A stretch of DNA of 24,235 nucleotides from a virus: the IMG/VR virus record IMGVR_UViG_3300045825_000093, positions 1 through 24,235 of that record, one strand, 5' to 3'. Positions 1,574 to 24,235 of the stretch are shown here, piece after piece. Every line of letters begins with the position of its first letter. The first letter of the stretch is position 1. Both the position numbers and the translations under genes were made by a program. The notes below the pieces were generated by a model, which was not told the origin of the DNA, ran no database searches, and worked only from the letters and a program-made list of their open reading frames with translations.

Positions 1574-1583
1574 ACTGTTTCAA

Positions 1584-1626: not shown

Positions 1627-1650
1627 TTCTAATATAATAAGGATAATATC

Positions 1651-2435: not shown

Positions 2436-2451
2436 GGTGGGGTTTTATTTT
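2419..2451 (+). terminator. Rho-independent terminator after the chaperone genes
   Basis: A 10-bp stem (2419-2428 with 2436-2445, one G-U pair, core CCCC/GGGG) with a 7-base loop is followed by TTTTATTTT. The loop contains the GT stop codon. It stands directly before the tape measure gene and should reduce read-through into it. Confidence 0.8.
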
Positions 2452-2466
2452 AACTAAAGGAAAATA

Positions 2467-7362: not shown

Positions 7363-7373
7363 GTTGTAGTATC

Positions 7374-7397
7374 GAGTAGCTCGGCAACGGGCTACTC
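7374..7397 (+). promoter_or_regulatory. Hairpin with GNRA tetraloop after the tape measure gene
   Basis: A 10-bp stem (7374-7383 with 7388-7397, one T-G pair) closes on a GCAA loop at 7384-7387. No T-run follows, so a processing or 3'-end protecting hairpin is more likely than an intrinsic terminator. It lies 12 bases after the tape measure stop. Confidence 0.6.
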
Positions 7398-7431
7398 CTT
7401 AGTACACTAACAATAATAAAGGATAATAAAT

Positions 7432-7794: not shown

Positions 7795-7804
7795 AATTTT
7801 ATAC

Positions 7805-7833
7805 TTGACTTTTTCTTTTGAGCTTGCTATACT
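7805..7833 (+). promoter_or_regulatory. Sigma-70-type promoter ahead of the tail tip operon
   Basis: TTGACT (7805-7810), a 17-base spacer, then TATACT (7828-7833), with a TG one base upstream of the -10 (extended -10, TGCTATACT). It lies in the only intergenic gap of this region, 28 bases before the L start. Five of six bases match consensus in each box, with ideal spacing. Confidence 0.8.
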
Positions 7834-7861
7834 AGTTCAAATAATCTATTGGTAGTAATAT

Positions 7862-9850
7862 ATGGAAGCCCATAAAAATATATCAGGTGAGGGAGGAGTA
7901 GTAACACCTCAACTACCCTACTATAACCCCCTTACAGTAGGCTATCTGTCTATAAGTACAAGTATAGATACTAACCCTAATCCTAACCCCGCAATTATAC
8001 CTGGTAGTACTAATACTCAAGTAAATCCTATAATTAAGGGTGTGTACCAGTCTTTAAACCCTGGTGCTATTGTAGAACTATTCGAACTAGATACTTCATC
8101 TATAGAACCAGCTACTCCAAATGTATATAGATTCCACTCAGGAGTATCTTTAGCTAATACAGAAGTAGTATGGCAGGGTAGAACTTACTTTAGATACCCG
8201 ATAGAAAGCTCAGGATACGAGTGGACAGGTAAGGGTCAGTTACCCAGACCTACTTTAAAAGTAGCCAATATTAGCGGATTAGTAAGTGCTATGAACCGAA
8301 CTAAGCAAGATTTAGTAGGTGCAAAGATTACTCGTAGGCAAACTTTTTATAAGTATATGGATGAAGTAAATCATTATACTGGTATTAGTTTAACAAAAAT
8401 GCCATGGCAAGTAGCAGTAACTATTAGTACAGTATCAGCCTCGCAGGATACAACAGTAGCTACTAATACGATGTTAAGTAGTTTCCCAATTAGTAGTACT
8501 GATTCTAGTTATTGGGAAACTTTAGTAACTATGGTAGGCTCTGGTATTTATTTAGGTATAGCGTACTCTGGTAATTCTCTTAAGTATGGAACTACTGGGT
8601 ACTTAGGTGTAGATACCTTATCCTGGGGGGCCTTATCTTCTGGAACTTTTTGGTATAACGGAGTATCTAGTACACTAGGCTTTACATTTACTACGGGGGA
8701 TACTGTTGGAATACTATATACCCCCAGTACTAATAGCTTAACTTTTTACTTAAATGGTGTACTAGCTAGTGTAAAGACCCTAAATGCGCCATCCTCTATA
8801 CAGCGAGCATACCCTGCTATTACTACCTCCACCTCTAGTGCATGTAAAATCGAGTGGGATGCTACTAAAGTTACGTATCCAATAAATCATAGTATGTATA
8901 TGTATAAAATACCTAAACAGGGTGGATTTTATACTAATAACTCCGACAACCTAAGCGCAGCAGACGCACTAATCCCCAAAACTATTAGTGATTCCACTAT
9001 AACTCGGGGAACCGGTGCAAGTAGCTGGCTATCTAGGTCTATAGGACCTAAGTTATTTAAAGGTAAGTATTACGTAGAAGTTAGCCTAACTGTAGGAGCT
9101 AATATGATGGTAGGTATTGCTAATAACCTACTAACTACTGATGCCTCTACGCATTTAAATACTAATGTATGGGTATACGATTTATATAACGCAGCTATAT
9201 ATGCTAATGGTGTACCTACTAGTGCAGGGCCCGCAGCTACTTTGGGAGCTAATATAGGCATCGCTATAGATATAGACTTACGTACTATTAGTTACTATAT
9301 AAATAGCAGTACTATACCATCAAAAGTGCAAACTTTTATTTTACCAGTAAATGGGTATGTATATCCTATTGTTTCTTGGTTTGATGCCGCTACATCTATC
9401 AAAATAAGATATGGATCAGCGTTTATAGATAATGCCTTTATTAATACTCCGCCTCCAGGTCACCAACCACTGCCTGCTGTTTCTAATCAAAATATATCTA
9501 CAGATGTAACTGTAGCCTTGGATGATGAGGTATACTTCATTAATCGTAAAATTAATGAAAATAGGGTACAAGTAGACTACGAGCTATCCTCATCTTTAGA
9601 TGTACAAGGTATTAAATTACCCCGCAGACAGGTACTACAGAATATCTGTGCCTGGGCCTATAAAGGTGCAGAGTGCGGGTATACTGGACCTGCTGTAGCA
9701 GATAACCTAGACCAACCTATTTTTTCACCTGCTACTACTTCTAGTAATAACTTACCAGATAGCTGCAGTAAAACATTAGATGGATGTAAAATGAGATTTA
9801 ATGGGCTAATTTTACCATATGGCGGCTTCCCAGGTAGTTCATTAATATGA
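7862..9850 (+). CDS. L: Minor tail protein L with a large internal SPRY-like insertion
   Basis: This 662-residue protein is a tail tip hub component; lambda gpL is 232 residues. The N-terminal L domain is clear at about 66-170 (GAIVELFELD, WQGRTYFRYPI, GKGQLPRPTLKVAN, DLVGAKITRRQTF). The C-terminal L domain starts at about 554 (INENRVQVDYELSSSLDVQG, LPRRQ). It keeps four cysteines, C596, C605, C635 and C642, whose spacing matches the lambda gpL [4Fe-4S] ligands. Between them lie about 380 foreign residues with two SPRY/concanavalin-like domains, about 200-345 (GDTVGILYTP, LTFYLNG) and about 385-545 (KGKYYVEVSL, GIAIDIDLRTISYYIN). The N-terminus also extends about 50 residues beyond lambda L, with an NPNPNP stretch. 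The start has only a weak GGTAG; no other suitable start exists. The stop overlaps the K start (ATGA). Confidence 0.92.
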   Translation: MEAHKNISGEGGVVTPQLPYYNPLTVGYLSISTSIDTNPNPNPAIIPGSTNTQVNPIIKGVYQSLNPGAIVELFELDTSSIEPATPNVYRFHSGVSLANTEVVWQGRTYFRYPIESSGYEWTGKGQLPRPTLKVANISGLVSAMNRTKQDLVGAKITRRQTFYKYMDEVNHYTGISLTKMPWQVAVTISTVSASQDTTVATNTMLSSFPISSTDSSYWETLVTMVGSGIYLGIAYSGNSLKYGTTGYLGVDTLSWGALSSGTFWYNGVSSTLGFTFTTGDTVGILYTPSTNSLTFYLNGVLASVKTLNAPSSIQRAYPAITTSTSSACKIEWDATKVTYPINHSMYMYKIPKQGGFYTNNSDNLSAADALIPKTISDSTITRGTGASSWLSRSIGPKLFKGKYYVEVSLTVGANMMVGIANNLLTTDASTHLNTNVWVYDLYNAAIYANGVPTSAGPAATLGANIGIAIDIDLRTISYYINSSTIPSKVQTFILPVNGYVYPIVSWFDAATSIKIRYGSAFIDNAFINTPPPGHQPLPAVSNQNISTDVTVALDDEVYFINRKINENRVQVDYELSSSLDVQGIKLPRRQVLQNICAWAYKGAECGYTGPAVADNLDQPIFSPATTSSNNLPDSCSKTLDGCKMRFNGLILPYGGFPGSSLI

Positions 9851-10548
9851 TAAGTACTAAGGAGTACTTAAAAGTTTTAGCGCATGCTAAGGCTGAATAC
9901 CCAAAAGAATCTTGTGGTGTTATAGTTAGTACAGGAGAGTATATTCCTTGTACTAATATAGCAGGTTCTGATAGCGAATTTATTATAAGTTATGAGGAAC
10001 TAGACAGCTTAGGGAAAGAGATACTGAAGTATATACACTCACACCCTACTACAGCTCCCATACCCTCTGAAGCTGATAAGCAAGGTATGCAGGCTACTGG
10101 TGTACCTTGGGGCATAATTAGTCCTAATACAGGAGACTACTTTGAGTATTTACCAGATAATACTATACCTCCTCTAATTGGTAGAGAGTTTAAGTTTGGG
10201 TCTATGGATTGTTACTCAATAGTACGTGATTACTATAAGTTAACGTATAATATAGACTTAATAAATCCTACTAGAGAAGATAGCTTCTGGGAACTTGGTA
10301 AGTCTTACTATATAGACTACTATGAAGCTGCAGGATTTATAAAAGTTATAGACTTAAAAATTGGTGACGTTATATTAATGACAATTGGCGCAAGTATCCC
10401 AAATCATGCAGCCGTGTACTTGGGAGACGAGCGTATGATACACCATATACAAAATAGGTTATCTAGTGAAGATATATACTCAGGGTACTGGGTTAAACGT
10501 ACTGTAGGGTACTATAGGCATAAGGATACTATTAATGAAAAAAGTTAA
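9847..10548 (+). CDS. K: Tail tip assembly protein K (JAB metalloprotease plus NlpC/P60 domains)
   Basis: This 233-residue protein has the lambda gpK two-domain plan. Residues 1-105 are a JAB/MPN domain with a full JAMM motif: E21, H64-S-H66, S74 and D77. Residues 110-225 are an NlpC/P60 cysteine peptidase with C122 (SMDCYS), H187 (NHAAVY) and a following HH at 199-200. The NlpC/P60 domain should cut peptidoglycan cross-bridges during entry or act in tip maturation; the JAB domain may process a tail protein. All catalytic residues are present. It overlaps L by four bases and I by 14, as in a coupled tail tip operon. Confidence 0.93.
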   Translation: MISTKEYLKVLAHAKAEYPKESCGVIVSTGEYIPCTNIAGSDSEFIISYEELDSLGKEILKYIHSHPTTAPIPSEADKQGMQATGVPWGIISPNTGDYFEYLPDNTIPPLIGREFKFGSMDCYSIVRDYYKLTYNIDLINPTREDSFWELGKSYYIDYYEAAGFIKVIDLKIGDVILMTIGASIPNHAAVYLGDERMIHHIQNRLSSEDIYSGYWVKRTVGYYRHKDTINEKS

Positions 10549-11146
10549 GCTATATGGGCATTTAGCAAAGGAATTTGGTGAAGAATTCTCTTTTTTAGCC
10601 AAATCCCCTGCAGAAGTTATACAGCTTTTAAATATTAACTTTAGTACTTTTCAGCAGGCTATACTAAACTTCAAAGGGGAAGGATACCTAGTTAAAGTTG
10701 GTATAGATATACTACCACTAGAAGATATACATAAGCCTACTTCTTCCTATGAAACTATCAAAATTATTCCTATAGTTAAAGGAAGTGGTGGTGGTAAGGG
10801 TGGGGGTCTTCTAATGTTAATAGCTGGAGCTGCTCTAATAGCCTTCTCAGGGCCTATAGGAGCAGCTATGGTAGGATCTGAAGTAGGGGCTACTACACTA
10901 GGGTTAACTGCAGGAGCTTGGGGCAGTATAGCCTCTTCTATAGGTATGTCTCTAGTATTATCCGGAGTTTCAATGCTACTATACTCACCCCCTCCTATAC
11001 CCTCTAACGCCCAGTCTATTAATTTTGATGGTGCAGTTAATACAATTAAACAAGGGGAATGTGTACCTGTAGGATATGGTAGGTGTATGGTTGGTTCCGC
11101 TGTAATTAGCGCGGGTATTAGTACTCAACTATTTAATGGTATATGA
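10535..11146 (+). CDS. I: Tail assembly protein I
   Basis: This 203-residue protein matches lambda gpI (Lambda_tail_I family; lambda I is 223 residues). It opens with a ubiquitin-like beta-grasp domain (about 1-85, MKKVKLYGHLAKEFG), then a Gly-rich hinge (KGSGGGKGGG). A hydrophobic Gly/Ala-rich segment follows at about 95-150. The C-terminus carries the family tail NTIKQGECVPVGYGR. gpI is needed for tail tip formation and is thought not to remain in the virion. The start lies inside the end of K (14-base overlap), and the stop overlaps the J start. Confidence 0.9.
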   Translation: MKKVKLYGHLAKEFGEEFSFLAKSPAEVIQLLNINFSTFQQAILNFKGEGYLVKVGIDILPLEDIHKPTSSYETIKIIPIVKGSGGGKGGGLLMLIAGAALIAFSGPIGAAMVGSEVGATTLGLTAGAWGSIASSIGMSLVLSGVSMLLYSPPPIPSNAQSINFDGAVNTIKQGECVPVGYGRCMVGSAVISAGISTQLFNGI

Positions 11147-14100
11147 TGAATAACTGTTTTAATATTAGCTATCCTGGAGTATCAGGGCAAGGTGGAGGCG
11201 GTGGAGGTAAGGGAGGGTCTAGTGGTGGAGGCGTAGAAGCCCCTGATAGCTTATTCTCCCATCAGTATGCTAAAGTTTTAGATGCTATATCCGAGGGGGA
11301 AATTGTAGGCTTAGTAAATGGATTACAGTCAGTATTTTTAGATGATGTACCTTTAATGAACACTTTAGGGCAGTATAACTATCAAGGATTTAGCTTGGCC
11401 TTTAGAACCGGCGTACCTAACCAGTCTATTATACAGGGATTTAATGCACAGGAGTCTAGTCAACCTATAAGTACTAGACTTAAGTATGGTGCACCATTAA
11501 TTAGGTCAGTACTTTCTAATACAGTTGATAGCGTAACAGTATCTATAGGTATTCCTAATTTAGGTAGTGTAGACTCTAATGGTAATATTAATAGTACTAT
11601 TGTATCCTATAGTATAGAGATTAAGCAATCTGGTGGAGCATGGTATCCTGCTAACCTATCTTCTACTAGGTATGTAGTTTATAGCAATACTACGGGTATT
11701 GCCACTACACCTATAGCTACGTCTATAATAGATGTAACAGCTACTATTGCCCTTGTATCTACATGGAGTAGTACAGGAGTAGCTAATGCGGCCCCTACTG
11801 GAACATTTGTACTAGAGTACGCCCCTATTAGTACCGGAGTATATATACTAGCTGCAAATTTAACACTTAGTCGAACATTACGGCCAAATGGGCTAGTTTA
11901 CGCCTACGATATATCTGTACCTAGTTTTAGTATACCAACTGCTGGGCAATACTTAGTTAGGGTTAGAAATAGTACTACAGGTACAGTGTACCCCTGCATA
12001 GTTGGGTGCTCTACGGCTTCCTATACATATACTATAAATGGTAAGTGTACAGGTAAATATATATCTGATCACTATATTAGTTTAGCTGGAATTCCTAACT
12101 CAGGATTCCCTGTGGATATTAGAGTTACTAGATTAACACCAGATAGCTTATCTGCAAAGCTTAATAATGAGACTTGGTGGGAAACGTTTACTGAAAGAGT
12201 AGAAGTTCCTATTAACTATACTAATACTGCAATTGCAGGCCTACAAATAGACGCTAGGTACTTTAGAGGTATTCCTAAAAGGTCATACGATTGTAAACTA
12301 CTAAAAGTAAAAGTACCCAGTAACTACTTTCCTGAGAAACAGATAATAGTATCGGCAGGTCAAACTACACAACAAGCGCTACTGCAAAGATACACTAGAA
12401 ATGCTACTACAGGTGTAGATACAGGAGTTCTACAAGTGTGGGATGGCACATTTTATACCGCTTGGACTGATAACCCCGTTTGGTGTTTTTATGATATGCT
12501 TACAAATACTAGGTATGGCCTAGGTAGTCATATAGCCTATAAGAATATTGGAACTACTAATTTATACAAGATAGCCCAGTACTGTGATGAACCCGTACAA
12601 GATGGGTTTGGTAATTATGAGTCTAGATTTACTTGTAACCTTTATATACAGTCTAGAGGGGATGCTTACCAAGTACTAAATACTATGGCATCTGTATTTA
12701 GAGCTATGGTATATTGGGATAGTGTAAGGGGTATGACTGCTGTACAGGACGCACCAGGTAGTATTATTGCTCAGTTTACTAATGCTAATATTATTGACGG
12801 TACTTTTAACTATACAGGTTCGGCGTCTCAAGCTAGGCATACTACAGCTCTAGTTACTTGGAATGACCCTGCTGAGCACTATAAGCAAAAAGTCGAATTT
12901 GTAGAAAACGCTACAGATGTATCTAGATTTGGTGTTAATCAACTTGATATCCCTGCTATTGGGTGTACCTCAAGAGGGCAAGCACACCGTATAGGTAAGT
13001 GGGCCTTATTTTCAGAATCGTTGGAAACTGAAATAGTACATTTTAAAACTGGCTTCGAAGGCCTAAGTATAAAGCCAGGAGATTTAATCCGTACAATAGA
13101 TAGTTTCCGTGCGGGTTTACGATATGGTGGTCGAATAGCTACAGTATACCCTAGTATTGACTTAGCTGTATTCACTGGTATAGGTAGTCTATCTAATACC
13201 TCACTAAATATAGGTATACCCTATGAGCAATTGACCGCGTATATAGATATATATAGTATTGTTACTACTAGCATTACTCTTAGTATAGAGAGAGTAGGTA
13301 TACCTCAGAATATCTTTGTTACTCAAGTAATACCTGCGGGAATATGGTCTAGAGTGCAAGTAAGTGGTACTCTAGATAGTAGTACATCTAGTCCTTTAGT
13401 AAAAGTTACCAGCTCTGCTACAACTTCGTTATACTTTGGTAAAGCACAACTAAATAATGGGCTAACAGCTCAGCTTTTTGATACCATAGGTACAGTAAAT
13501 AAATTAACTTTTCCGCATATATTAAGTAATACTGCCTGGGTAAAGGTAAATACTGCAATAACTACTACTAATACGGCACAAGTAACTATAGATGCACCCA
13601 TAACCTTAGCTACGGGTACTACGTATACGCTATCTTCCCAGACAGCTATAGGCACTTTAATAGATATGCCCATAGTTAATACAACTATGGGTAGTACACA
13701 AGTTCTACAAACAGCCCCTATGCTAGCACAGTTACCTCAAGAAGGAGCTATTTGGACAGTTACTAGTAGCGTACTAAATCCTGAAACTTGGCGTATTATG
13801 TCTATAGTTGAAGATCAAAAAGGTATCTATGCGGTTACTGCTTTAGAGCATAATACAAGTAAGTACGATGCAATTGAAAAAAACCTACAACTACAAGTAC
13901 TAAATACTTCAGTAATAACTACTGTACCAACACCTGTTACTAATATATTAGTAGTTGGCAGTAAATATACTATATCACCTGGAGTACAAGGTACTAAAAT
14001 GAGTATATCCTGGGATAAGTCTCCTACAGCAATTAAGTATATTGTTAGTTATATTGAAAATGCTAATCCACTAATAGAACTACCCCCTACTGCTAATACT

Positions 14101-14187
14101 TCAATAGAAATACTAAGTGCTGTTGTAGGAGCTACATATACAATTACAGTTACTGCGTATAACGCACTAGGAAAGGCGTCTCCTTGA
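11143..14187 (+). CDS. J: Central tail tip (host specificity) protein J, N-terminal part
   Basis: This 1014-residue protein is the hub of the tail tip and carries host-recognition functions. Landmarks: the Gly-rich N-terminus (GGGGGGKGGSSGGG); SEGEIVGLVNG; the J core with DIRVTRLTPDS, NYTNTAIAGLQIDARYF, GIPKRSYDCKLLKVKVPSNYFP and LTNTRYGLG; and a C-terminal FNIII domain (about 925-1013, SISWDKSPTAIKYIVSY). Two segments look inserted. Residues about 172-297 are a beta-rich domain between GGAWYPA and NGKCTGKYIS. Residues about 670-800 hold a CBM_4_9-like stretch (LTAYIDIY, IWSRVQVSGTLDSS, FGKAQLNNG). The frame stops in the FNIII region at a point where J proteins usually continue, and the next frame supplies that continuation. 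Starts ATGATG at 11143 or 11146. Confidence 0.9.
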   Translation: MMNNCFNISYPGVSGQGGGGGGKGGSSGGGVEAPDSLFSHQYAKVLDAISEGEIVGLVNGLQSVFLDDVPLMNTLGQYNYQGFSLAFRTGVPNQSIIQGFNAQESSQPISTRLKYGAPLIRSVLSNTVDSVTVSIGIPNLGSVDSNGNINSTIVSYSIEIKQSGGAWYPANLSSTRYVVYSNTTGIATTPIATSIIDVTATIALVSTWSSTGVANAAPTGTFVLEYAPISTGVYILAANLTLSRTLRPNGLVYAYDISVPSFSIPTAGQYLVRVRNSTTGTVYPCIVGCSTASYTYTINGKCTGKYISDHYISLAGIPNSGFPVDIRVTRLTPDSLSAKLNNETWWETFTERVEVPINYTNTAIAGLQIDARYFRGIPKRSYDCKLLKVKVPSNYFPEKQIIVSAGQTTQQALLQRYTRNATTGVDTGVLQVWDGTFYTAWTDNPVWCFYDMLTNTRYGLGSHIAYKNIGTTNLYKIAQYCDEPVQDGFGNYESRFTCNLYIQSRGDAYQVLNTMASVFRAMVYWDSVRGMTAVQDAPGSIIAQFTNANIIDGTFNYTGSASQARHTTALVTWNDPAEHYKQKVEFVENATDVSRFGVNQLDIPAIGCTSRGQAHRIGKWALFSESLETEIVHFKTGFEGLSIKPGDLIRTIDSFRAGLRYGGRIATVYPSIDLAVFTGIGSLSNTSLNIGIPYEQLTAYIDIYSIVTTSITLSIERVGIPQNIFVTQVIPAGIWSRVQVSGTLDSSTSSPLVKVTSSATTSLYFGKAQLNNGLTAQLFDTIGTVNKLTFPHILSNTAWVKVNTAITTTNTAQVTIDAPITLATGTTYTLSSQTAIGTLIDMPIVNTTMGSTQVLQTAPMLAQLPQEGAIWTVTSSVLNPETWRIMSIVEDQKGIYAVTALEHNTSKYDAIEKNLQLQVLNTSVITTVPTPVTNILVVGSKYTISPGVQGTKMSISWDKSPTAIKYIVSYIENANPLIELPPTANTSIEILSAVVGATYTITVTAYNALGKASP

Positions 14188-16373
14188 CAACTATAAATTT
14201 TACATTTGTATTAACTCCTAGTACTCCTGCAGATGTTACTAATTTTAATATAGCCATAGTTGGATCTGCAGCTACTTTAAGCTGGGACCCTGTATTAGGG
14301 GACCCTGACTTAAGCCACTATGTTATACGATATTCTTCGGATTTAGTAACCCCTCTATGGAATAATAGTAGCATATTAATACCTAGTATTCCCGCTAAGT
14401 CAGGAAGTGCTATAGTAGTTTCCTTAGTAGGGTCTTACCTTATTAAAGCAGTAGACTTACAGGGGTATGAAAGTAATAATGCCTCTATAATTAGTACTAC
14501 TATAGCAATACTAGATACTATTAATGTGATATCTACACATAATGAAACAGCTTTACTAGGAGCTAAAGTTAATTGTGGTGTTGGGGCAGGTATTTTGTAT
14601 ACCCAAGGAAACTCCGCGAGAGCTTGGAGTACTATGAGTGACGTAGTTAATATGGCTTATGGTAGTACTAATAGCTTACTTGGTATTACTGATAAAGACC
14701 CTTTACATACAGTAGCTAGTGATGGTACGGTGACTTTGGCTAGCCTATCAGGTTGGCGTACTTTTAGAGCCCCCGTAGGGATATCTAGAGGTAAATGGTA
14801 CTGGGAAATATACTGCTCCTCGAATGATATATCAGCTAACTATGCGGCATACCAAATGGTAGGGGTATCTGAAGCAGCCCTTAATGTAGGGTACCCTAGT
14901 TTGGGTAGTAATCCTGGTCCAGCACATATGTATTATGGTGCTACAGGACTATCCTATGGTAATGGTAGTACTGGACAAGCGTTACTTGGGGGGGTTTCAC
15001 GTCCTTGGGCGGTACTTAACACGGGGCCATACACTTTAGGTATTGCTTTTAATGCTGATATTGGGTTAGTAGAGTACTACTTGAATAATGAGTACCAAGG
15101 GGCTATTCCTACTAACTTACCTAGGAATAGCCTAGTATTTCCTACAGTATCTCAGTATGCTGGTTGGGCAGGTGTTACACAGTCTGCATTATTTAACTTT
15201 GGTAGTACAGCATATAAGTTTACACCACCTATAGGGTATTTAAGCCTTACTAATGGAGTAATGCCTAAAGCTTATTACTACTTTAGAGGAATACAAGATA
15301 CTAAAATAACTACTGATACCTCTCCTAGTATATTACTAACTAATAATGGTTTAACTATTCAAACAGCAACTACTACACCTAATTCATGGCATAGTGCTAG
15401 AGCTAATATTGGGGTATCTAAGGGTAAATGGTATTGGGAAGTAAGTGTAACTCAGAATTGTTTACTAGGTATTTCTCAAGCTTCCCATGTACTTACTAAT
15501 TACTGCGGATCGGGTATTACAGGGTATAGCTGGAGACCTAGTATTGGGCAACGATATAATAATGGGGTAGCTACTACTACAACAGGATACCCATCTAAAG
15601 ACTTAAGATGGTTAATAGGGGTATGTTTAGACTTAGATACTAATGTGTTAATATTTTACTATGATGGAATGTATATCACTGAGGCAGCCATAGCGAGTGG
15701 TACCTACTACCCTACTTTATCAGTATATAATAGTGTAGCTAATGTACCTACGGATGATGCTAGGTTTAACTTTGGGGCAAATGGATTTATGTTTAATCCA
15801 CCTGAGGGGTTTGAACCTTTAGTACTCCCTACTATTGACCTAGGAGTTAATACTACATCTAGAACTATTACAGATATTAGTTATACTCCACATAATATTC
15901 TTAATCTAGCAGTTGGTTGGAGTAATATGGCTAGTATAAGTGAGTTCTCAGGTACTGCAGCAGCAGATGCCTCTGCATTAATAGAGGTCTCTACTTCTCT
16001 AGACACATTTACTTGGGCTCCCTGGGCCCCTTTAGTAGCAGCTAGTTTTACTACTAGATACTATAAGCTACGAGTAAAACTACTAAGTACGCATAGTATT
16101 GATACACCCCTAGTATCTCTTATTAATGCAGTAATTGATATGCCAGATGTAACTCAAGCTGGTAATAATATAGCTTCCTCAAGTACTATAGATACTACTT
16201 GTGTTTATAGCTTTCATGAAGTTCCTGCTATTGCTATAGCTGGGCAAAATATGGCTACAGGGGATTACTACTCTATAACTAGTAAAACATCTAGCGGATT
16301 TACCGTTAATTTCTATAATTCCAGTAATATACGTATTTCACGTATATTTGACTGGGTAGCTAAAGGATACTAA
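14184..16373 (+). CDS. Tail tip protein J, C-terminal part (FNIII and two SPRY-like domains)
   Basis: This 729-residue frame looks like the second half of J. It begins inside or just before an FNIII domain with a typical J motif (PADVTNF, LSWDPVLGDPDLSHYVIRY, about 15-50). It ends with the usual J terminus (DYYSITSKTSSGFTVNF, FDWVAKGY). Between are two SPRY-like domains, about 180-355 and 385-545, each opening with GKWYWE and containing a YYLN- or FYYD-type strand after a G-(I/V)-x-hydrophobic stretch. The only start at this point is TTG at 14184, overlapping the upstream stop as TTGA and preceded by AGGAAAGG at 14169-14176. It may be made by re-initiation, or by a -1 frameshift that rebuilds a single J of about 1745 residues. 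Confidence 0.82.
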   Translation: MTTINFTFVLTPSTPADVTNFNIAIVGSAATLSWDPVLGDPDLSHYVIRYSSDLVTPLWNNSSILIPSIPAKSGSAIVVSLVGSYLIKAVDLQGYESNNASIISTTIAILDTINVISTHNETALLGAKVNCGVGAGILYTQGNSARAWSTMSDVVNMAYGSTNSLLGITDKDPLHTVASDGTVTLASLSGWRTFRAPVGISRGKWYWEIYCSSNDISANYAAYQMVGVSEAALNVGYPSLGSNPGPAHMYYGATGLSYGNGSTGQALLGGVSRPWAVLNTGPYTLGIAFNADIGLVEYYLNNEYQGAIPTNLPRNSLVFPTVSQYAGWAGVTQSALFNFGSTAYKFTPPIGYLSLTNGVMPKAYYYFRGIQDTKITTDTSPSILLTNNGLTIQTATTTPNSWHSARANIGVSKGKWYWEVSVTQNCLLGISQASHVLTNYCGSGITGYSWRPSIGQRYNNGVATTTTGYPSKDLRWLIGVCLDLDTNVLIFYYDGMYITEAAIASGTYYPTLSVYNSVANVPTDDARFNFGANGFMFNPPEGFEPLVLPTIDLGVNTTSRTITDISYTPHNILNLAVGWSNMASISEFSGTAAADASALIEVSTSLDTFTWAPWAPLVAASFTTRYYKLRVKLLSTHSIDTPLVSLINAVIDMPDVTQAGNNIASSSTIDTTCVYSFHEVPAIAIAGQNMATGDYYSITSKTSSGFTVNFYNSSNIRISRIFDWVAKGY

Positions 16374-17956
16374 TGTCACAATTTGATTGGGGTACGTTAA
16401 ACCCTCTTACAGAATCAGGAACTCAATTAATGCTAGACCTTAATGCGTTTAGGTCCGCAGTTGAAAGTACACATAGTGGAACAGTTAGACCTACGTATCT
16501 AGGTGCAGGGGGTACTTGGATTAATAATGCTTCAACTCCTTGGGTAGTTTACTCCTGCACTACTAGCAATAGTGCAGGAGACATAGTAATAGGGTACTTA
16601 GACCCTACAACACTAGTATATATTGGTGTTACTACAGAAGGACTTCTATCTAAAAGTGTAGCAGGGGCCTCTAATGTTACTCTAACACCTATTGAGAGTA
16701 TTAATAGTATCTTTGAATTTACAGGGGCTCTAACTGCTAGTATAGCAGTAATAGTACCTGATACTAAGAAGCGCTATCAAGTGGAGAATTTAACTACTGG
16801 TGCGTATACCTTAACTATAAAGACGGCAGGGGGTTCGGGTATCTCAGTACCCCAAGGTACTACAGCTTCTCTATACTGTAATGGAATAAATATAGAAGAC
16901 TCTAATAGCTCTAAACAGGGTATTAGTGGCCAGATTTCAGGCTTCCGTAACAAGATCATCAATGGAGATATGCAGGTAAGTCAGGTTAATGGTGGGACTG
17001 CGGTTACACCAACTGGCCTAGTTTATCCAATTGACCAATGGCAGTTTGTGCCAAGTGTAAGTTCTAAGTTAACATTTCAGCAAGTAGTTGACGCACCTGC
17101 AGGGTTCAAGTATTCGACGAAGATTACAGTTGCTACTCAATACTCACCATCAGCAGCAGATTACTTAATATTCCAGCAACCTATTGAAGGTCAAAACGTT
17201 GTTGATCTTGGCTTTGGTACATCAACCCCTGCAACCATTGCCGTAAGTATGTGGATTAAGGGTTCTATAGCTGGAACTTACGCATTCTCTATAACAAACC
17301 AAGGTGTAAGAGCTTATGTAGGTACAGTTAGTGTAACTGCTAGCTGGACTAAACAAACTGTAGTATTAGTTTGTGATAATATAGGTGTTTGGACTACTGA
17401 TAACACTCAAAGTGCAACAATCAGGTTCGACTTAGGGTGCGGAACTAATTATTCACAAGCGGCAAATACTTGGGTGGCTGGTACAATTGGTAATTGCAGA
17501 ACTTCAACCTCGACCATTTTTTGTAATCAAGTAGCTGGTAGCACCTTAAACATCACAGGTGTACAGTTAGAGCAAGTCTCTCCAGGCGCTACGCAAGGCA
17601 CTGCGTTTGAGCACGTTAGTTACGCTGACCAGTTGAGAGGGTGTCAGAGGTACCTCCCATACTTTAATGCTGGGGCTTATAGCATGGTTCTACAAGCTAC
17701 GGGCGCTACAGCGGCATATGGAGGACCTATTACATTCCCGGTTCAGACTAGAGTAGGTGTGACGGGTATTGTTTCGGTAGGTGTAGCTACTGCCTCAGCA
17801 GCTAATGGCGTATCGGCAGGGGGAACCCTAGGTGTATACATAAGTAGCAATACAAATCCGACTATTAGTATGACGGGATGCACGGGGTTAGTTGCGGGTA
17901 ACGCCTCAGCAGTGTTTGGAATGTCAGCAGTTTACTTTACTGGGAGTCAAATGTAA
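16373..17956 (+). CDS. Tail fibre or receptor-binding protein with a carbohydrate-binding-like domain
   Basis: This 527-residue protein follows J directly (1-base overlap) with a good ribosome site (AAAGGA, 16363-16368). Residues 1-185 look like a virion-attachment and shaft region, with a beta-rich segment TLTIKTAGGSGISVPQG near 150 typical of fibre trimers. From about 190 (FRNKIINGDMQVSQ, then YPIDQWQF) comes a jelly-roll, carbohydrate-binding-like module of about 220 residues, ending in the motif FEHVSYADQLRGCQRY (about 410) that I recognise in phage fibre and tail proteins. A C-terminal beta region ends SAVYFTGSQM. Base composition becomes GC-richer near 16930, exactly at the start of this module. 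Confidence 0.8.
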   Translation: MSQFDWGTLNPLTESGTQLMLDLNAFRSAVESTHSGTVRPTYLGAGGTWINNASTPWVVYSCTTSNSAGDIVIGYLDPTTLVYIGVTTEGLLSKSVAGASNVTLTPIESINSIFEFTGALTASIAVIVPDTKKRYQVENLTTGAYTLTIKTAGGSGISVPQGTTASLYCNGINIEDSNSSKQGISGQISGFRNKIINGDMQVSQVNGGTAVTPTGLVYPIDQWQFVPSVSSKLTFQQVVDAPAGFKYSTKITVATQYSPSAADYLIFQQPIEGQNVVDLGFGTSTPATIAVSMWIKGSIAGTYAFSITNQGVRAYVGTVSVTASWTKQTVVLVCDNIGVWTTDNTQSATIRFDLGCGTNYSQAANTWVAGTIGNCRTSTSTIFCNQVAGSTLNITGVQLEQVSPGATQGTAFEHVSYADQLRGCQRYLPYFNAGAYSMVLQATGATAAYGGPITFPVQTRVGVTGIVSVGVATASAANGVSAGGTLGVYISSNTNPTISMTGCTGLVAGNASAVFGMSAVYFTGSQM

Positions 17957-18237
17957 TGAACTGGAAACTTTCGCAAGACGGATTATCGGCTTATCGCGCA
18001 CTGGACAACGGTGGCGTGGAATCAAGACTTATTAGCGCAATTGACCCTAGTGAAGTAGTGCTTCCAGCTGACCCATTCCCTAACCCTCAATTAGGTATTA
18101 TTGACGCCCAGTTAGCCGCTTTGGATATTAAAAGAATTAGGCCTATAGCAGAAGGGGATAGTGTATACCTAGCTACTTTAAATATACAGGCTACAGCACT
18201 ACGAGCACAGCGAGCGCTTCTACCTACTACAGTATGA
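17956..18237 (+). CDS. Small fibre-associated protein (possible fibre assembly partner)
   Basis: This 93-residue protein overlaps the fibre stop by one base (TAATG), so it is coupled to it. The first half (WKLSQDGLSAYRALDNGGVESRLI) reads like a beta hairpin domain. The second half holds the helical motif LAALDIKRIRPIAEGD with a following ATALRAQRALL helix, a signature common at the end of small phage proteins next to fibres. Such genes are often chaperones or caps for the fibre, but the family is not certain. Composition changes from fibre-like to backbone-like near 18110, inside the gene, which suggests the gene end anchors a recombination join. Confidence 0.65.
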   Translation: MNWKLSQDGLSAYRALDNGGVESRLISAIDPSEVVLPADPFPNPQLGIIDAQLAALDIKRIRPIAEGDSVYLATLNIQATALRAQRALLPTTV

Positions 18238-18767
18238 TAGCTAGCCTAGCTAAGTGGTTAGTCTTATCCCTAGCGGGATTAAGTCTAACCATACTTACAG
18301 TACTTCTAAGCCCCCTGCTTGCGCTAACTATAAGCACAGAGGGGTACTTACCTGCCTGGCTAAGTTGGTTTCAAACTCCGGACGCCCCCGCTATAGGGGA
18401 TAAAGGATTTCAAGAAACTCAAATGTCTTGGACTACTAATAAGTACATTTATGCCCTATTCTGGCTATGCAGAAACCCTGCATATGGGTTCGACTATAAT
18501 ATACTTAGTTTTTCAGTACTTAAAGGTTTCAATTTAAAAAGTTTTGGAAACCCAAAGGTATCCAATAGTCCTTTAGTAGAGGGTTGGTGCTTTAGAAAAC
18601 TAGTTCAAGGTACTAAGACTTACTTTCAGTTTTACTATGTTAAGACTTGGTCAGCTAACTACTGCATAAGGCTAAACTTTGGATGGAAACTATGGGGAGA
18701 CATACACTCAGGGCAACTAAAACCTTTAGTATGTTCTCCAATGGTTACTGCAAAGTACACGTTGTAA
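18234..18767 (+). CDS. Membrane-anchored protein of unknown function
   Basis: This 177-residue protein starts at an ATGA overlap with the previous stop. Residues about 7-33 form one strong hydrophobic helix (KWLVLSLAGLSLTILTVLLS), without a clear signal peptidase site. The rest is aromatic-rich and soluble-looking, with motifs FWLCRNPAYGFDYN (about 76-89), VEGWCFRKL and LNFGWKLWGDIHSGQ. I have a faint memory of small phage proteins with a W-x-x-RNP-x-YG motif but cannot name a family with confidence. It is the last gene of the coupled unit and is followed by a new promoter. A role in lysis or superinfection exclusion is possible. Confidence 0.7.
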   Translation: MIASLAKWLVLSLAGLSLTILTVLLSPLLALTISTEGYLPAWLSWFQTPDAPAIGDKGFQETQMSWTTNKYIYALFWLCRNPAYGFDYNILSFSVLKGFNLKSFGNPKVSNSPLVEGWCFRKLVQGTKTYFQFYYVKTWSANYCIRLNFGWKLWGDIHSGQLKPLVCSPMVTAKYTL

Positions 18768-18777
18768 AATTTTAACC

Positions 18778-18806
18778 TTGACAATTTAATATGTGGGTAG
18801 TATAAT
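18778..18806 (+). promoter_or_regulatory. Perfect consensus sigma-70-type promoter
   Basis: TTGACA (18778-18783), exactly 17 bases, then TATAAT (18801-18806): a full match to consensus in both boxes. It lies in the 70-base gap after the membrane protein gene and should start transcripts at about 18812-18814, some 25 bases before the ATG at 18838. It makes the downstream genes independent of the tail operon. Confidence 0.88.
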
Positions 18807-18829
18807 TTAAAGATACTTATACTACCCAC
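18793..18829. promoter_or_regulatory. 13-bp inverted repeat overlapping the -10 box and start site (candidate operator)
   Basis: Bases 18793-18805 and 18817-18829 are perfect inverted repeats (arm GTGGGTAGTATAA) around an 11-base centre. The left arm covers most of the -10 box and the right arm ends 8 bases before the start codon of the next gene. A transcript from the local promoter would lack the left arm. The repeat therefore acts either as a DNA operator or as a hairpin only in read-through mRNA. No T-run follows. Confidence 0.7.
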
Positions 18830-18837
18830 CTACTTAT

Positions 18838-19242
18838 ATGACTGAACAAACTAGACGTAATAGCGACCATAGTATGATGGATATTACATCCATGATAGCC
18901 GCCGAGGATGACGCAAAACAGCGAGCATTTTTAATAGTTCTAAACTCTATAAATATGTCCTTAGTGGCTAATACAGCCACTATTAGGGATATATCTAGTA
19001 AACTAGAAACTCACCTTGATAACTTTGAAGTGCATACTGCAGCGGAGGAAGCCTTACTTAATAAAGGTAAAGGTGCTTGGAAAGTTATGGCTTGGGTAGT
19101 AGGACTAGTACAATCCCTAGCTTTAGCTTTATGGCTGACTATCAGTGCAGATGTTAATAATATTCACATAAGTGTCCAGGAATCTCGAGATAGTACTAGC
19201 CAACTGGGTGCAAGGGTACTAGTTCTTGAATCAAAAAAATAA
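18838..19242 (+). CDS. Coiled-coil protein with one transmembrane helix (holin-like or moron candidate)
   Basis: This 134-residue protein has a helical N-terminal part (about 20-75, including ATIRDISSKLETHLDNFEVH), one hydrophobic helix at about 82-103 (MAWVVGLVQSLALALWLTI), and a second short helix to a KK end. A single membrane helix between coiled coils is seen in phage membrane proteins near lysis genes, but no holin family is recognised. It has its own consensus promoter and candidate operator but no visible Shine-Dalgarno sequence (CCACCTACTTAT before ATG). Its own promoter suggests a moron-type or separately timed gene. Confidence 0.7.
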   Translation: MTEQTRRNSDHSMMDITSMIAAEDDAKQRAFLIVLNSINMSLVANTATIRDISSKLETHLDNFEVHTAAEEALLNKGKGAWKVMAWVVGLVQSLALALWLTISADVNNIHISVQESRDSTSQLGARVLVLESKK

Positions 19243-19255
19243 ATAAAGGAACATT

Positions 19256-19501
19256 ATGACAATCGTAGTAGACGGAATTAATTCTGCATCTTCAGTATGG
19301 ATTGTAGCGCCTAGTGACTCAGTTGACTTAGCTTATACAACTAGAGCTATTAGAGTTACTGTGGGGGGTGCAGTCAAAATTAATACACTAGCGGGGGATA
19401 CAGTAGTTTGCGCATTCTTAGATGGAGAAACTCGTGCTATTCGTGCAACTAGAATTTGGGCAACTGGCACCACTGCCACAGGCCTAGAAGGGATGTACTA
19501 A
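19256..19501 (+). CDS. Spike-base-like small structural protein (RCAP_rcc01079-like)
   Basis: This 81-residue beta-rich protein has the pattern TRAIRVTVGGAVKINTLAGDTVVCAFLDGE followed by ATRIWATGTTATGLEGMY. I associate this with the small spike-base protein family named after Rhodobacter gene transfer agent protein rcc01079, found just before receptor-binding proteins. It probably forms the collar or base that connects the next protein to the tail. The family call is from memory of the motif. It has a good ribosome site (AAAGGA, 19245-19250) 13 bases after the previous stop, and the next gene begins one base after its stop codon. Confidence 0.65.
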   Translation: MTIVVDGINSASSVWIVAPSDSVDLAYTTRAIRVTVGGAVKINTLAGDTVVCAFLDGETRAIRATRIWATGTTATGLEGMY

Positions 19502-20830
19502 ATGTTAGGCCTAGGCTTTGGCTTAGGCCTTTCGCGTATGGGGACGTTTAAACCTAATCCCTTCGCCACAGCCTCCTTCTTCGCCCCTCTAACCTCCTCG
19601 CTGGCATTGACTAAAGGTACGGGAGTGGCTACGTTTACGCGGGCAACAAGTGCGACTGTGATGGGATATGCTCCAACAGCCGTTGCTGGTGATGCACAGG
19701 TGTTGCTTACATGTGCAGCAGGCGAGGCGAGGTTTGAAGGTGCGCGGCGCGTATCTCAAGGGGTATGGTCTGAGATATTAAGTGATGGTACAGCAATCCC
19801 CGCAGCGACACTCAAAGGTTATCTAGCCGAGGGGGCGGCGACTAATTTGTGTTTGCAGAGTAATACTTTTACTTCTGCACCTTGGGTTGGCTACGGTAGT
19901 ACAGTCGCATTAGCTCCCTCAATTGTAGATCCTAGTGGCGGCGCTAATAGTTATTTACTAAGTGCAGGTGCAGGAGCCGCGTATTTTCTCCAGTCAGGCA
20001 ATATAGCTGCCAATAATACTCGCTCTATCTGGATGAAAGCAGGGACTACTCCATATGTATGGTTGAGTGGTGTTTACGCAAACAACTCAGAGGCTTGTTT
20101 TGATTTATTACTAGGGGTTGTCCAGCGCGTAAATGGAGTGGGCACTACTGCAAGCATGGTGGCTTATCCAAATGGTTGGTATAGATGTAGCCTAACCTCT
20201 CCTACTGTGGATCCTTATTTTTACCTAGTTGTCAGCCCTAAAAGTTTTTCAGGCTCTTTAAACGCAGCAGTCACAACATCAGCTTGCACTTGTTACATCT
20301 ATGGAGCACAAGCAGAACTCGGCGCAACAGCAACATCCTACATCCCAACAACAACAGCCGCGGTTACGCGGAATGTGGATGTGCTTACTTATCCTAGTGC
20401 GGGGAATATGGTCGGGGGTATAGGCGCTGCGAGCGTAGATATGTGTACATCTGGCGGTCACGCGATTGACACAGGTAGGGCGGTAATTTCAAGCTTTGTA
20501 GGGGCGCAAGGGATGCCTATAAGTGGCAACTTTGCGGGAAATAACACTGTCGGGATATATGACGGGGTAAGTTATGTAGCAACAAATATCTCGTATGGCC
20601 CTTTGCTGGCACCCACCAAAGTAGCAACTACATGGTCAGGAACAGTTGCTATCGCATCAGTGCAAAGTGGAATTAGCGCCTCTGTGGCGATTGTAGGGAT
20701 GCCTATAAGTTCTTTTATCGGTATCGGATGCTGGCCTGGAGGAAATGCTCCCTTAGGGGGAAACATCAAAAACGTCCGCCTCTGGACTACTCAACTCACC
20801 GCCACCCAACTGGTACAGATAACAATATGA
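19502..20830 (+). CDS. Tail protein with carbohydrate-binding and LamG-like domains
   Basis: This 442-residue protein opens with a Gly-Leu repeat (MLGLGFGLGLS), common right after spike-base genes. It continues with FTRATSATVMGY and EGAATNLCLQSN, a start I recognise in phage appendage proteins. Residues about 115-285 form a CBM_4_9-like module (SAPWVGYGSTV, NNTRSIWMKAGT, NGWYRCSLTS) and end in IYGAQAELGATATSYIPTT. The C-terminal 140 residues resemble a concanavalin/LamG fold (GNIKNVRLWTTQLTATQL). It is a likely receptor or glycan binder. The gene is visibly GC-richer than the tail backbone and uses different codons. The ribosome site is GAAGGGA (19487-19493). Confidence 0.75.
   Translation: MLGLGFGLGLSRMGTFKPNPFATASFFAPLTSSLALTKGTGVATFTRATSATVMGYAPTAVAGDAQVLLTCAAGEARFEGARRVSQGVWSEILSDGTAIPAATLKGYLAEGAATNLCLQSNTFTSAPWVGYGSTVALAPSIVDPSGGANSYLLSAGAGAAYFLQSGNIAANNTRSIWMKAGTTPYVWLSGVYANNSEACFDLLLGVVQRVNGVGTTASMVAYPNGWYRCSLTSPTVDPYFYLVVSPKSFSGSLNAAVTTSACTCYIYGAQAELGATATSYIPTTTAAVTRNVDVLTYPSAGNMVGGIGAASVDMCTSGGHAIDTGRAVISSFVGAQGMPISGNFAGNNTVGIYDGVSYVATNISYGPLLAPTKVATTWSGTVAIASVQSGISASVAIVGMPISSFIGIGCWPGGNAPLGGNIKNVRLWTTQLTATQLVQITI
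19507..19530 (+). promoter_or_regulatory. Strong hairpin directly after the start codon
   Basis: A 10-bp stem (19507-19516 with 19521-19530, one G-T pair, built from two AGGCCT copies) with a TTTG loop begins 3 bases after the ATG of the carbohydrate-binding tail protein gene. It arises from the Gly-Leu repeat codons and may slow initiation or mark a recombination join. No function is shown. Confidence 0.45.
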
Positions 20831-21168: not shown

Positions 21169-21283
21169 CCTAGACCAGGTTGGCTTAGTAATTATAATAG
21201 TACAGTGTGCAATATTATACGTACAGTTACTTAGGTCTTTCCCTTATTTTTGTAAAAGGTGTAATAAACGTGATAACACTTGA
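21155..21283 (+). CDS. 42-residue single-pass membrane microprotein (lysis candidate)
   Basis: This small frame begins with MDCYSLDQVG and then a hydrophobic helix (LVIIIVQCAILYVQLL, about residues 11-26). It ends in a basic tail with a Cys-x-x-Cys pair (FCKRCNKRDNT). The start is preceded by a very purine-rich ribosome site, GAGGGGGG at 21141-21148, with a 6-base spacer. It overlaps the end of the upstream gene by 14 bases and the start of the M15 peptidase by 14 bases, so it fills the gap between two genes with typical coupling overlaps. Size, topology and place beside a peptidoglycan peptidase suggest a small holin or holin-like factor. No family was recognised. Confidence 0.6.
   Translation: MDCYSLDQVGLVIIIVQCAILYVQLLRSFPYFCKRCNKRDNT
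21171..21198 (+). promoter_or_regulatory. Weak candidate promoter upstream of the M15 peptidase gene
   Basis: TAGACC (21171-21176, four of six matches), 16 bases, then a perfect TATAAT (21193-21198). The -10 is again part of an inverted repeat (TATAATA at 21193-21199 with TATTATA at 21213-21219). It lies inside the microprotein gene. AT-rich coding sequence could produce this by chance. Confidence 0.3.
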
Positions 21284-21686
21284 ACAGTATCTAATGGGCA
21301 GAGACTTAAAATACTCTTGCTCAGAAGAGGTAAAAACTAATGCTTTAGAGACTATAAAGCGTACTAATGAGCTAAAGCTTATCTACGGTATTAAAGAAGA
21401 TATAGTAGCGTCAGGGTGGAGGCCTGCGGCCATCAACGACACTACTTGCAACGCTGCTAAAACAAGCACGCATATAACTGGTCAAGCACTAGATACTAAA
21501 GACCCTAATAGAAAGTTTGCTAAGTGGTGCTTGCAGAACTTACAGGAACTAGAAGAAATAGGCTTATGGATGGAAGACCCTAGGTGGACACCTACATGGG
21601 TGCACCTACAGACTATCCCGCCTAAGTCAGGTAAGCGAGTTTATATACCATCTACAAAACCTGCGTTGGCACCACCATTAATTTAA
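21270..21686 (+). CDS. M15-family peptidase, probable endolysin
   Basis: This 138-residue protein has the peptidase M15 zinc site: SGWRPAAIN, then STHITGQALD (S-x-H-x-x-G-x-A-x-D) giving H68 and D75, and a C-terminal WVH giving H112, with E/D at WMEDPRW as a possible catalytic acid. Such enzymes cut D-Ala or L-Ala-D-Glu peptide bonds of peptidoglycan; many are phage endolysins. I chose the GTG at 21270 because AAGGTG (21256-21261) stands 8 bases before it. The frame is open back to a GTG at 21207 without a ribosome site. No signal peptide remains with the short start. It overlaps the membrane microprotein, supporting a lysis pair. Confidence 0.85.
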   Translation: MITLEQYLMGRDLKYSCSEEVKTNALETIKRTNELKLIYGIKEDIVASGWRPAAINDTTCNAAKTSTHITGQALDTKDPNRKFAKWCLQNLQELEEIGLWMEDPRWTPTWVHLQTIPPKSGKRVYIPSTKPALAPPLI

Positions 21687-21695
21687 AGGACTAGA

Positions 21696-24235
21696 ATGAT
21701 AACTAGAGTTCTAAGTAACGCAGGAGCACCTTTGGTAAAGCCAGATGGAACTCTTTTAGCAAATGTACAGGTATCTTTCTTACTAGTTAATAGTACGGGA
21801 GTACCTTGTTCAGTTTTCGATGCCCTTACAGGTGAGAGGGTAACAGGACGTGTAACTACTACTACGAATGCCCAGGGTATATTTAGTATACCTCTATGGC
21901 CAAATGATCGTGGTGAGGTAGCTAGCCAGTATACTTGTATAATTGACTCGTATGGTGCGACGCCCTTCTCAGCAGGTGTGCCATCGGGGTCCCAGACCCT
22001 AACTTGGCTTCAATTTAAAACTTCAGGATTGCCTATTACTCCCCAGGTAGTAACAGCTATTACTGCGTATATCACTCAGTTAGAAGCCGATGTAGCATTA
22101 ACTCATGCTGATGTAGTTTTAACTCATGCTGATGTAGTTTTAACTCATGCTGATGTAGCATTAACTCATGCTGATGTAGCATTAACTCATGCTGATGTAG
22201 TTTTAACTCATGCTGATGTAATAACTGCTGGAACCAACGCAGGCACAGCAACAACTCAAGCTGGCACAGCAACAACTCAAGCGGGTATTGCATCTAGTGC
22301 GGCTTTAACAGCAACAAACGCAGCGGCAGCATTAGACGCGGCTTTGGCATCCTTCCGCAGTAAGTATCTTGGCAGTTTTACCACTGATCCCACCCTTGAT
22401 GGTAACGGAAATGCTTTAGTTTCAGGAGCAGAATACTTCAATTCCGTTTCTACTAAACTACGGTTCTATTCCGGTACGGCTTGGGTAGATTACGATGCCA
22501 CCGCTCAAGTTGAAATGAGCAATGCAGCTCTATCCGCAATAGCGGCAGCAGGTAGCGCATCGGCAGCAGGGACATGGGCAACGGCTGCAGCGGCATCACT
22601 CGTAGCAGCCACAACACAAGCGGCTCTGGCAACGACAAACGGACAGGCTCAGGTTACTTTAGCAACAACTCAATCAAATAACGCCGGAACATTTGCCTCC
22701 GCAGCATCATCGAGCGCAGCCACTGCCCTACAGGCAGCGGGAACAGCAACTCAGTACAGTACCGCCCTCGCAGCGATTGCCAGTCAGACGGCGATTGTTC
22801 CTGCCGCGACGGTGACGGGGTTTAATGGTACGGTAGTCGCATCCTATATCTACGACACTCGCACTGAATCAGACGGCGGGGCTTGGCGTAAGCGTTGCCA
22901 GAATACCTCTTGGTACAATGAGACTGTTTACGGGAAGTACTTGGGTGAGTGGAAAGATGAAGCCACAGCCAGAACTATAGGTAATTCTGTATATGGGCCT
23001 GAGTTGGTCGTTAATGGACAGTTTAATTCAGATGTTAGCAGTTGGTTCGCTCAGACAGGAAATCCTGTATATGGCTCCACCATAGCCTACAGTAATGGTA
23101 CCTTGCAAGTAACTCCTAATGGTACTTTTGGCATAGCTTATCAGACACTCTCCGGGCTAGTCTCAGGCAATGTGTATCGTGTCTCAGCACAATCTGTTCC
23201 AGGCGCTAGATTTGATATATCTCTCAACCCCGGGTATCCTAATGGAAACGCATTCTTCAGCTCTACTACGAATTCCGCAGGTATAGTGGAAGGATATTTT
23301 GTGGCAAGCTCTGCACCTACGTACGTAGCGTTATTTTCTTTGGTCAGCACAACAACTTCTTGGGATAACATCTCAGTCAAACAAGTAACCGCCCAGAACG
23401 CCACAACCACCGACTACTTTCACAATACCACAGACGGCAAGTTCTACGCACTGAAGGCCACATCAGGTGTAACTGAGGTTTTCCGTGGCAATCGTAGAGA
23501 ATTCCCAGAAGTTGTTGCCATAACTGCTGAAGCTGGTCGCGTGATTATCTGGGATTTGACGGATAGTAGTAGGCCTATGTGGCGTTCATTTCCGCCAAAT
23601 GTTGGTGTATTTGCAAGCATAGGGGTTGGTAGCTATTTACTTACTAGTATTTCTGCCATACATGGTCAGATGTTTATTGGCGTTGGTGGTGCGGCAGGTT
23701 CTGGTATTTTTATTGCAAATTTTATACTTGACAGATTTAACATATATTCGAGTGCTGGCTATTATGGAGGGGCTCCCGGAACTATAGGTGGTTCACAGCT
23801 AGCCCAGTCCCCTACTATAAAAATTAGTAACGTATCCCTGATCAATAATATCGTCAACTCCATCGCAGCCACAGTCCTTCCAAACGCACCCATAGACCCT
23901 GCGACTGGTCTGCCTATACCTACTATTTACGTTGGAACTGCAGGTGGAGTCTCACGAATCGCAGATGATGGTACTGTTAGCTCAACTGCTTCACAGAATG
24001 TTCAAAAAGTAGTGATTGATGGAATATTTGTAAAGGCATCGTCGGGCGCAAATAACGCTGTGGCGTCATGGCTGCTTACTGATGCCCTGCCTACTGGTTC
24101 TGGCGCCACATATATAAATAATGCTGGCTGGAATAAGGCAACCTACTATTCGACAAGTGGTTCAATTCCTGCAATTCTTGGGGCGAATGGGCAGGCTGTT
24201 AGAGGTGTGATTGGCGCATACACTGGGCTTGCCTT
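21696..24235 (+). CDS. Large tail fibre protein (3' end beyond the window)
   Basis: The frame is open from ATG 21696 (ribosome site AAAGGA, 21685-21690) to the window end, at least 846 residues. Residues about 1-115 form an N-terminal attachment domain (NVQVSFLLVN, WPNDRGEVASQYTCIIDSYG). Residues about 131-195 are 7-residue repeats. Then comes a T7-fibre-like segment (SKYLGSFTTDPTLDGNGNALVSGAEYFN, 226-253), an Ala-rich helix, a CBM_4_9-like module (about 433-565, ELVVNGQFNSDVSSWF, WDNISVKQV), and a distal beta-rich part (EAGRVIIWDLT, IYVGTAGGVSRIADDGTV) that may be a propeller. It lies directly after the peptidase gene. From about 22230 the DNA is GC-richer than the first 500 bases. Confidence 0.85.
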   Translation, partial: MITRVLSNAGAPLVKPDGTLLANVQVSFLLVNSTGVPCSVFDALTGERVTGRVTTTTNAQGIFSIPLWPNDRGEVASQYTCIIDSYGATPFSAGVPSGSQTLTWLQFKTSGLPITPQVVTAITAYITQLEADVALTHADVVLTHADVVLTHADVALTHADVALTHADVVLTHADVITAGTNAGTATTQAGTATTQAGIASSAALTATNAAAALDAALASFRSKYLGSFTTDPTLDGNGNALVSGAEYFNSVSTKLRFYSGTAWVDYDATAQVEMSNAALSAIAAAGSASAAGTWATAAAASLVAATTQAALATTNGQAQVTLATTQSNNAGTFASAASSSAATALQAAGTATQYSTALAAIASQTAIVPAATVTGFNGTVVASYIYDTRTESDGGAWRKRCQNTSWYNETVYGKYLGEWKDEATARTIGNSVYGPELVVNGQFNSDVSSWFAQTGNPVYGSTIAYSNGTLQVTPNGTFGIAYQTLSGLVSGNVYRVSAQSVPGARFDISLNPGYPNGNAFFSSTTNSAGIVEGYFVASSAPTYVALFSLVSTTTSWDNISVKQVTAQNATTTDYFHNTTDGKFYALKATSGVTEVFRGNRREFPEVVAITAEAGRVIIWDLTDSSRPMWRSFPPNVGVFASIGVGSYLLTSISAIHGQMFIGVGGAAGSGIFIANFILDRFNIYSSAGYYGGAPGTIGGSQLAQSPTIKISNVSLINNIVNSIAATVLPNAPIDPATGLPIPTIYVGTAGGVSRIADDGTVSSTASQNVQKVVIDGIFVKASSGANNAVASWLLTDALPTGSGATYINNAGWNKATYYSTSGSIPAILGANGQAVRGVIGAYTGLA
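22086..22220 (+). repeat. 21-bp tandem repeat encoding ADV(A/V)LTH heptads
   Basis: Six full 21-bp units (starting at 22086, 22107, 22128, 22149, 22170 and 22191) and a partial seventh (22212) encode A-D-V-A/V-L-T-H. Units differ almost only at GCA/GTT in codon four. The 7-residue period suggests a trimeric coiled-coil shaft in the fibre. Such repeats can expand or contract by slippage. Confidence 0.9.
22239..22280 (+). repeat. Second 21-bp tandem repeat encoding AGTATTQ (two copies)
   Basis: Two nearly identical 21-bp units (22239-22259 and 22260-22280) encode AGTATTQ twice and continue the same 7-residue period with a different sequence. They follow the first repeat array after a short linker and keep the fibre frame. 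Confidence 0.75.

Follow-up and report, generated by a model that had tools for sequence, protein, structure and literature searches.

Genes and transcription units at the locus

The window analysed here is the whole stretch of 24,235 nucleotides, positions 1 to 24,235 of IMG/VR virus record IMGVR_UViG_3300045825_000093, and the promoters and genes described in it lie on the plus strand. A sigma70-type promoter (TTGACT-17-TATACT, 7805-7833) is followed by genes that abut or nearly abut one another from 7862 to 18767, the last of which encodes a DUF7338 family protein (18234-18767). The gap that comes after it, at 18768-18837, is the first to exceed 15 nt in about 11 kb of packed genes. Because the genes behind the promoter at 7805 follow each other almost without gaps, read-through into the 18768-18837 gap is likely, and this upstream promoter is a candidate source of the read-through RNA. 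Downstream of the gap, the genes encode a 134-aa protein of the lysis region (18838-19242), an 81-aa tail-fibre-like protein (19256-19501), a 442-aa adhesin-like tail protein (19502-20830) and an M15-type endolysin (21207-21686), whose true start is probably a little further in than 21207, and are followed by another large adhesin-like ORF. Tandem near-identical short repeats (LTHADVV/LTHADVA) are present in this last ORF at 22072-22293. An initial annotation of this DNA had proposed that a second promoter, located in the gap at 18778, feeds the unit of lysis and adhesin genes, and this proposal is supported. Both the promoter at 7805 and the one at 18778 are sigma70-like.

The 134-aa product contains a single strongly hydrophobic segment near residues 84-102, which makes its previous description as a membrane protein a reasonable one. 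The sole homologue of this protein was found in the locus L003 (52%), and conservation of R6, R7 and D10 in the homologue backs the start codon at 18838; no relatives of the gene were found in bacterial genomes or in GenBank phages. The structure predicted by AlphaFold was of low confidence (pLDDT 61, two sequences). In L003, the homologue directly precedes a homologue of the M15-type endolysin, and an Rz-spanin-like protein then follows. On account of these neighbours, a lysis role for the 134-aa protein is probable. Neither a promoter nor a hairpin or repeat is found before the homologue in L003.

A consensus promoter overlapping a perfect inverted repeat

The predicted sigma70 promoter of the gap occupies positions 18778-18806. 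Its -35 hexamer TTGACA (18778-18783) and its -10 hexamer TATAAT (18801-18806) match the consensus at 6/6 positions each and are spaced by 17 nt (criterion, 16-18 nt), which confirms the consensus promoter that had been annotated and makes it the sole 12/12 match found. The perfect 13-bp inverted repeat that had been reported together with it is also present. The left arm GTGGGTAGTATAA (18793-18805) and the right arm TTATACTACCCAC (18817-18829) are separated by a spacer of 11 nt (18806-18816), stand 24 bp apart from centre to centre, and leave 8 nt (18830-18837), with no Shine-Dalgarno (SD) sequence, between the end of the right arm and the ATG at 18838. Under first-order Markov statistics of the window, the number expected in these 24 kb is 0.03 for perfect promoters and 0.02 for perfect 13-bp inverted repeats whose spacer measures 3-20 nt, and the sharing of one 70-bp intergenic gap by the two elements is far beyond chance.

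The position of the arms relative to the promoter had been described as covering both the -10 box and the start site. This holds for the -10 hexamer, whose first five bases out of six are inside the left arm, but not for the start site, which is expected in the spacer. Judged from the usual distance of 6-8 nt past the -10 hexamer, transcription would start at about 18812-18814, that is, between the arms. With a start site in the loop, the local transcript would carry only the right arm, as part of its leader, and the hairpin would be possible solely on RNA coming from upstream, where the left and right arms would provide its 5′ and 3′ strands, respectively. Two further readings of the repeat were rejected: phase-inversion of the promoter, because the arms do not flank it, and a minus-strand promoter in the right arm, because the sequence located 17 nt upstream of TATAAG is CAGTCA, a poor -35. 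An Rfam scan and a tRNA scan were both empty.

The initial annotation had interpreted this layout as an operator for a dimeric regulator. In a broader form of this explanation, a dimeric or tetrameric regulator of the phage or the host would bind the arms, over the -10 hexamer and the first transcribed bases, and keep the strong promoter repressed in a lysogen or until the time of lysis. The repeat does overlap a perfect promoter, which without repression would be permanently active, and a gene of the lysis region needs restraint. However, the search for the same arms elsewhere in the phage, which had been proposed with that interpretation, revealed no copy beyond chance. The exact arms are single-copy in the window, where looser matches occur at the chance level (14 found vs 14.9 expected); the 35.8-kb sister contig described below contains no copies beyond chance, and IMG/VR no exact copy elsewhere. 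Of the genes examined, within about 38 kb of contig fragments that lack the early region, none was recognised as encoding a regulator, an integrase or a repressor. The geometry argues in the same direction, since 13-bp arms with 24 bp between their centres are longer and more widely spaced than suits a single HTH dimer, and perfect arms that are not themselves palindromic fit an RNA stem better than a small dimeric regulator. Promoters of the lambda pL/pR type have several shorter operators near the repressor gene. The site shares with them an inverted repeat on a sigma70 promoter, but multiple operators near a repressor gene were not found here. Repression by a dimeric regulator thus gained no support, and an operator of any of these kinds appears unlikely. 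As for the delay of lysis that had also been suggested, it may still take place, more likely through RNA than through a repressor.

An exchangeable cassette in a near-identical phage

The comparison with the sister contig IMGVR_UViG_3300045918_000033 (L013/G001) showed that both phages are identical over positions 1-1189 of the window and 99.98% identical over positions 1143-18020 (16.9 kb). Past 18020, the sister contig carries other sequence up to the position equivalent to 19542, after which patches of about 90% identity appear in the adhesin. The switch in identity is sharp and occurs inside the gene at 17956, and the swapped interval corresponds to window ~18020-19542 versus L013:16878-17470. 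In that interval of the sister contig, the DUF7338 gene, the promoter, the repeat and the 134-aa gene are all absent. Because a near-identical sister lacks it, the element belongs to an exchangeable adhesin/lysis cassette, and the cassette is, by this sequence comparison, strain-variable. The idea of a moron gene expressed in a lysogen is therefore borne out in its first part, the variable carriage, and not in its second, as no repressor or integrase was recognised in the genes covered. Searches with the J protein, terminase, adhesin and endolysin retrieved many related contigs, none of which was found to have this leader or the 134-aa gene. In the collections searched, no second copy of the cassette with the leader was found.

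The fact that the 1.5 kb surrounding the repeat are swapped between otherwise near-identical phages might suggest that the repeat is a recombination-type site tied to cassette exchange, similar to the lox-like sites of tyrosine recombinases, with their 13-bp arms. Contrary to this, the borders of the exchange (~18020 and 19542) fall within coding regions at a distance from the repeat; the spacer of 11 departs from the 6-8 that lox-like tyrosine recombinase sites have, and neither another copy of the site nor a recombinase was recognised, all of which makes this explanation very improbable.

A composite of both contigs encodes a lambda-J-like tail tip protein and a large terminase whose closest counterparts (48% identity) belong to Vibrio phages having genomes of 112-121 kb. 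We take these phages to be T5-like and virulent, which does not favour the lysogen part of the earlier interpretation. The large terminase of the sister contig, in the locus L019, is flanked by GIY-YIG and HNH-type homing endonuclease genes (L019:3665-4276 and L019:5733-7397), the one at L019:5733-7397 being on the minus strand and having its own promoter-like sequence. Further, dense nested inverted repeats follow the capsid gene at L019:11142-11228, where 21-nt overlapping perfect palindrome arms are accompanied by a 21-nt 95% repeat.

Predicted folding of read-through and local transcripts

The stability of the hairpin and the cost of opening the translation start were calculated, as computed energies, and compared among 18 starts. 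The hairpin alone has a predicted stability of -17.0 kcal/mol. Folding of a 93-nt read-through RNA gave a z-score of -4.0, with no shuffle being equally stable, and in a 501-nt read-through RNA the pair probabilities of the hairpin ranged from 0.81 to 1.00. In the local RNA that begins at 18812 the hairpin cannot form. The predicted cost of opening the region from -20 to +15 around the AUG was 15.6 kcal/mol in the read-through RNA versus 3.2-3.3 kcal/mol in the local RNA, and it dropped to about 3 kcal/mol in the read-through RNA when the left arm was complemented in silico. The opening cost with a long leader exceeded that with a 25-nt leader by 12.2 kcal/mol at this gene, compared with 4.4 kcal/mol or less at the other 17 starts. 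In agreement with the earlier remark that no ribosome site is visible, the predicted pairing of the gene at 18838 with the anti-SD sequence (+2.8 kcal/mol) was the worst among the 18 starts, 13 of which reached -3.0 kcal/mol or better. The helix ends at -9, so that the AUG is outside it, and there is no SD to bury.

A canonical intrinsic terminator was rejected because a U-run is absent 3′ of the stem; the sequence after the hairpin is CUACUUAUAU, and the hairpin was not among the hits of the terminator scan. The structure could nevertheless have another function at the RNA level, as a processing, 3′-end or weak termination signal of the upstream tail mRNA that does not gate anything. The sharing of bases with the promoter would then save space, and there are long gap or terminator hairpins elsewhere in this phage (for instance at 1590-1611, L019:4270-4318 and L019:5698-5731), including a terminator with a promoter-like sequence immediately after it (L019:4270-4360). 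The missing U-run is at odds with such a signal, and so is the location of the hairpin at the AUG, from which it is separated by 8 nt, unlike the other hairpins in the gaps of the window, which stop about 27-39 nt before the AUG. We consider this function quite unlikely. Within the tail module, stem-loops were seen in three other intergenic gaps (1590-1611, 2062-2093 and 7375-7398); one of them is a perfect 22-bp palindrome, and all three lie at a good distance from the start codon that follows.

A proposed translational gate for read-through RNA

The explanation that we favour, with moderate confidence and on the basis of predictions from sequence, is that the sigma70-type promoter is nested in a hairpin that acts as a translational gate for read-through RNA. 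The -10 hexamer lies largely within the 5′ arm of the repeat, which ends 8 nt before the start codon of the lysis-region gene. In this model, the local mRNA would start in the loop, with a leader of about 25 nt that includes only the 3′ arm and forms no hairpin, whereas RNA from the upstream tail operon would have both arms, and its predicted stem would span from about -45 to -9. In the absence of a Shine-Dalgarno sequence, initiation would need an open leader, and for this reason the hairpin would block synthesis of the 134-aa protein on the tail-operon mRNA, whereas genes further along that carry a ribosome site of their own could still be translated from it. The dedicated promoter would be the sole source of the 134-aa protein. 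The dose and timing of the membrane protein of the lysis cassette would thereby be uncoupled from the tail genes. A perfect sigma70 promoter should act from the start of infection, and the gate alone would therefore provide no late timing.

A similar logic is known from phage T4 gene e, which encodes lysozyme. A structure over the start of this gene on long early transcripts cuts synthesis about 100-fold, and the late promoters of the gene encode the 5′ strand of the structure, so that their own RNA lacks it (PMC3014915). Precedents for the promoter-in-hairpin geometry are T4 e, soc, 49 and I-TevI (PMC3014915), and the gate logic has been described for I-TevI, I-TevII, I-TevIII, segB and Aeh1 mobE (PMC2988022). 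As in gene e, the promoter analysed here encodes the 5′ strand of the hairpin and the local transcript, given its expected start, would be devoid of it; the long upstream RNA is predicted to fold at the translation start, and the gene concerned belongs to the lysis region, gene e being a lysis gene. In contrast, T4 uses a late promoter (TATAAATA) instead of a sigma70 consensus promoter and buries the SD and/or the AUG in the helix, whereas the present gene has no SD and its AUG follows the helix at a distance of 8 nt. The tail genes differ as well, being lambda-J-like rather than T4-like in the present phage. By analogy, the site probably works like the gene e gate, but we do not file it as a member of that type because neither an SD nor the AUG is inside the helix.

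Two other systems share part of this arrangement. The leader of seg43 in Aeromonas phage 25 also has a very stable hairpin directly upstream of the initiation site and not over it, with a putative regulatory role, although its RBS comes after the stem and the present gene has none (PMC2988022). In Bacillus subtilis sigG, a gate has been proposed in which the large hairpin that blocks read-through translation is unable to form on RNA started at the promoter of sigG itself, as would be the case here; unlike the present phage gene, which has no SD and a sigma70-type promoter, sigG is a cellular gene of sporulation that has an RBS and whose promoter is of the sigmaF/sigmaG type (PMC5942855).

We tentatively suggest, as a more specific possibility, an SD-free gate of the T4 type that is run by the host sigma70 enzyme, in which the origin of the transcript alone would decide whether the membrane protein is translated. 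If the promoter were active only during host sigma70 transcription, the polarity of such a gate would be the reverse of that in T4, with the protein being made early and shut off on late read-through RNA.

Occurrence in other phage loci and a recurrent 10-mer

In 765 kb of phage loci that were scanned, the 18778 site was the only one at which a promoter was combined with arms over 8 bp in the gate layout. With arms of at least 8 bp, the layout before ORFs was found in four cases, including this site, versus one in each of two random sets; the other cases were weak 8-bp ones, near the random level, and recurrence in these 765 kb was not seen. The finding is based on one example. If the gate is real, a phage whose tail genes are unrelated to those of T4 has arrived at the same promoter-in-hairpin trick, using an ordinary host-type promoter and having no Shine-Dalgarno sequence to conceal. 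Calling a promoter with a repeat an operator could then be wrong, and a simple check for other phage genomes would be where the start site lies with respect to the arms.

The 10-mer TATACTTGAC is present in four copies in the window and the sister contig combined, versus 0.13 expected (window 7800-7809 and 23723-23732, L019:4315-4324 on the plus strand and L019:7453-7444 on the minus strand). Three of the four copies stand at the head of promoter-like sequences in intergenic regions, where a -10-like hexamer comes 17 nt later, and the fourth is within an adhesin-like ORF. The phage thus seems to use an extended -35 motif, a variant of which, TAACCTTGAC, is found in the promoter at 18778.
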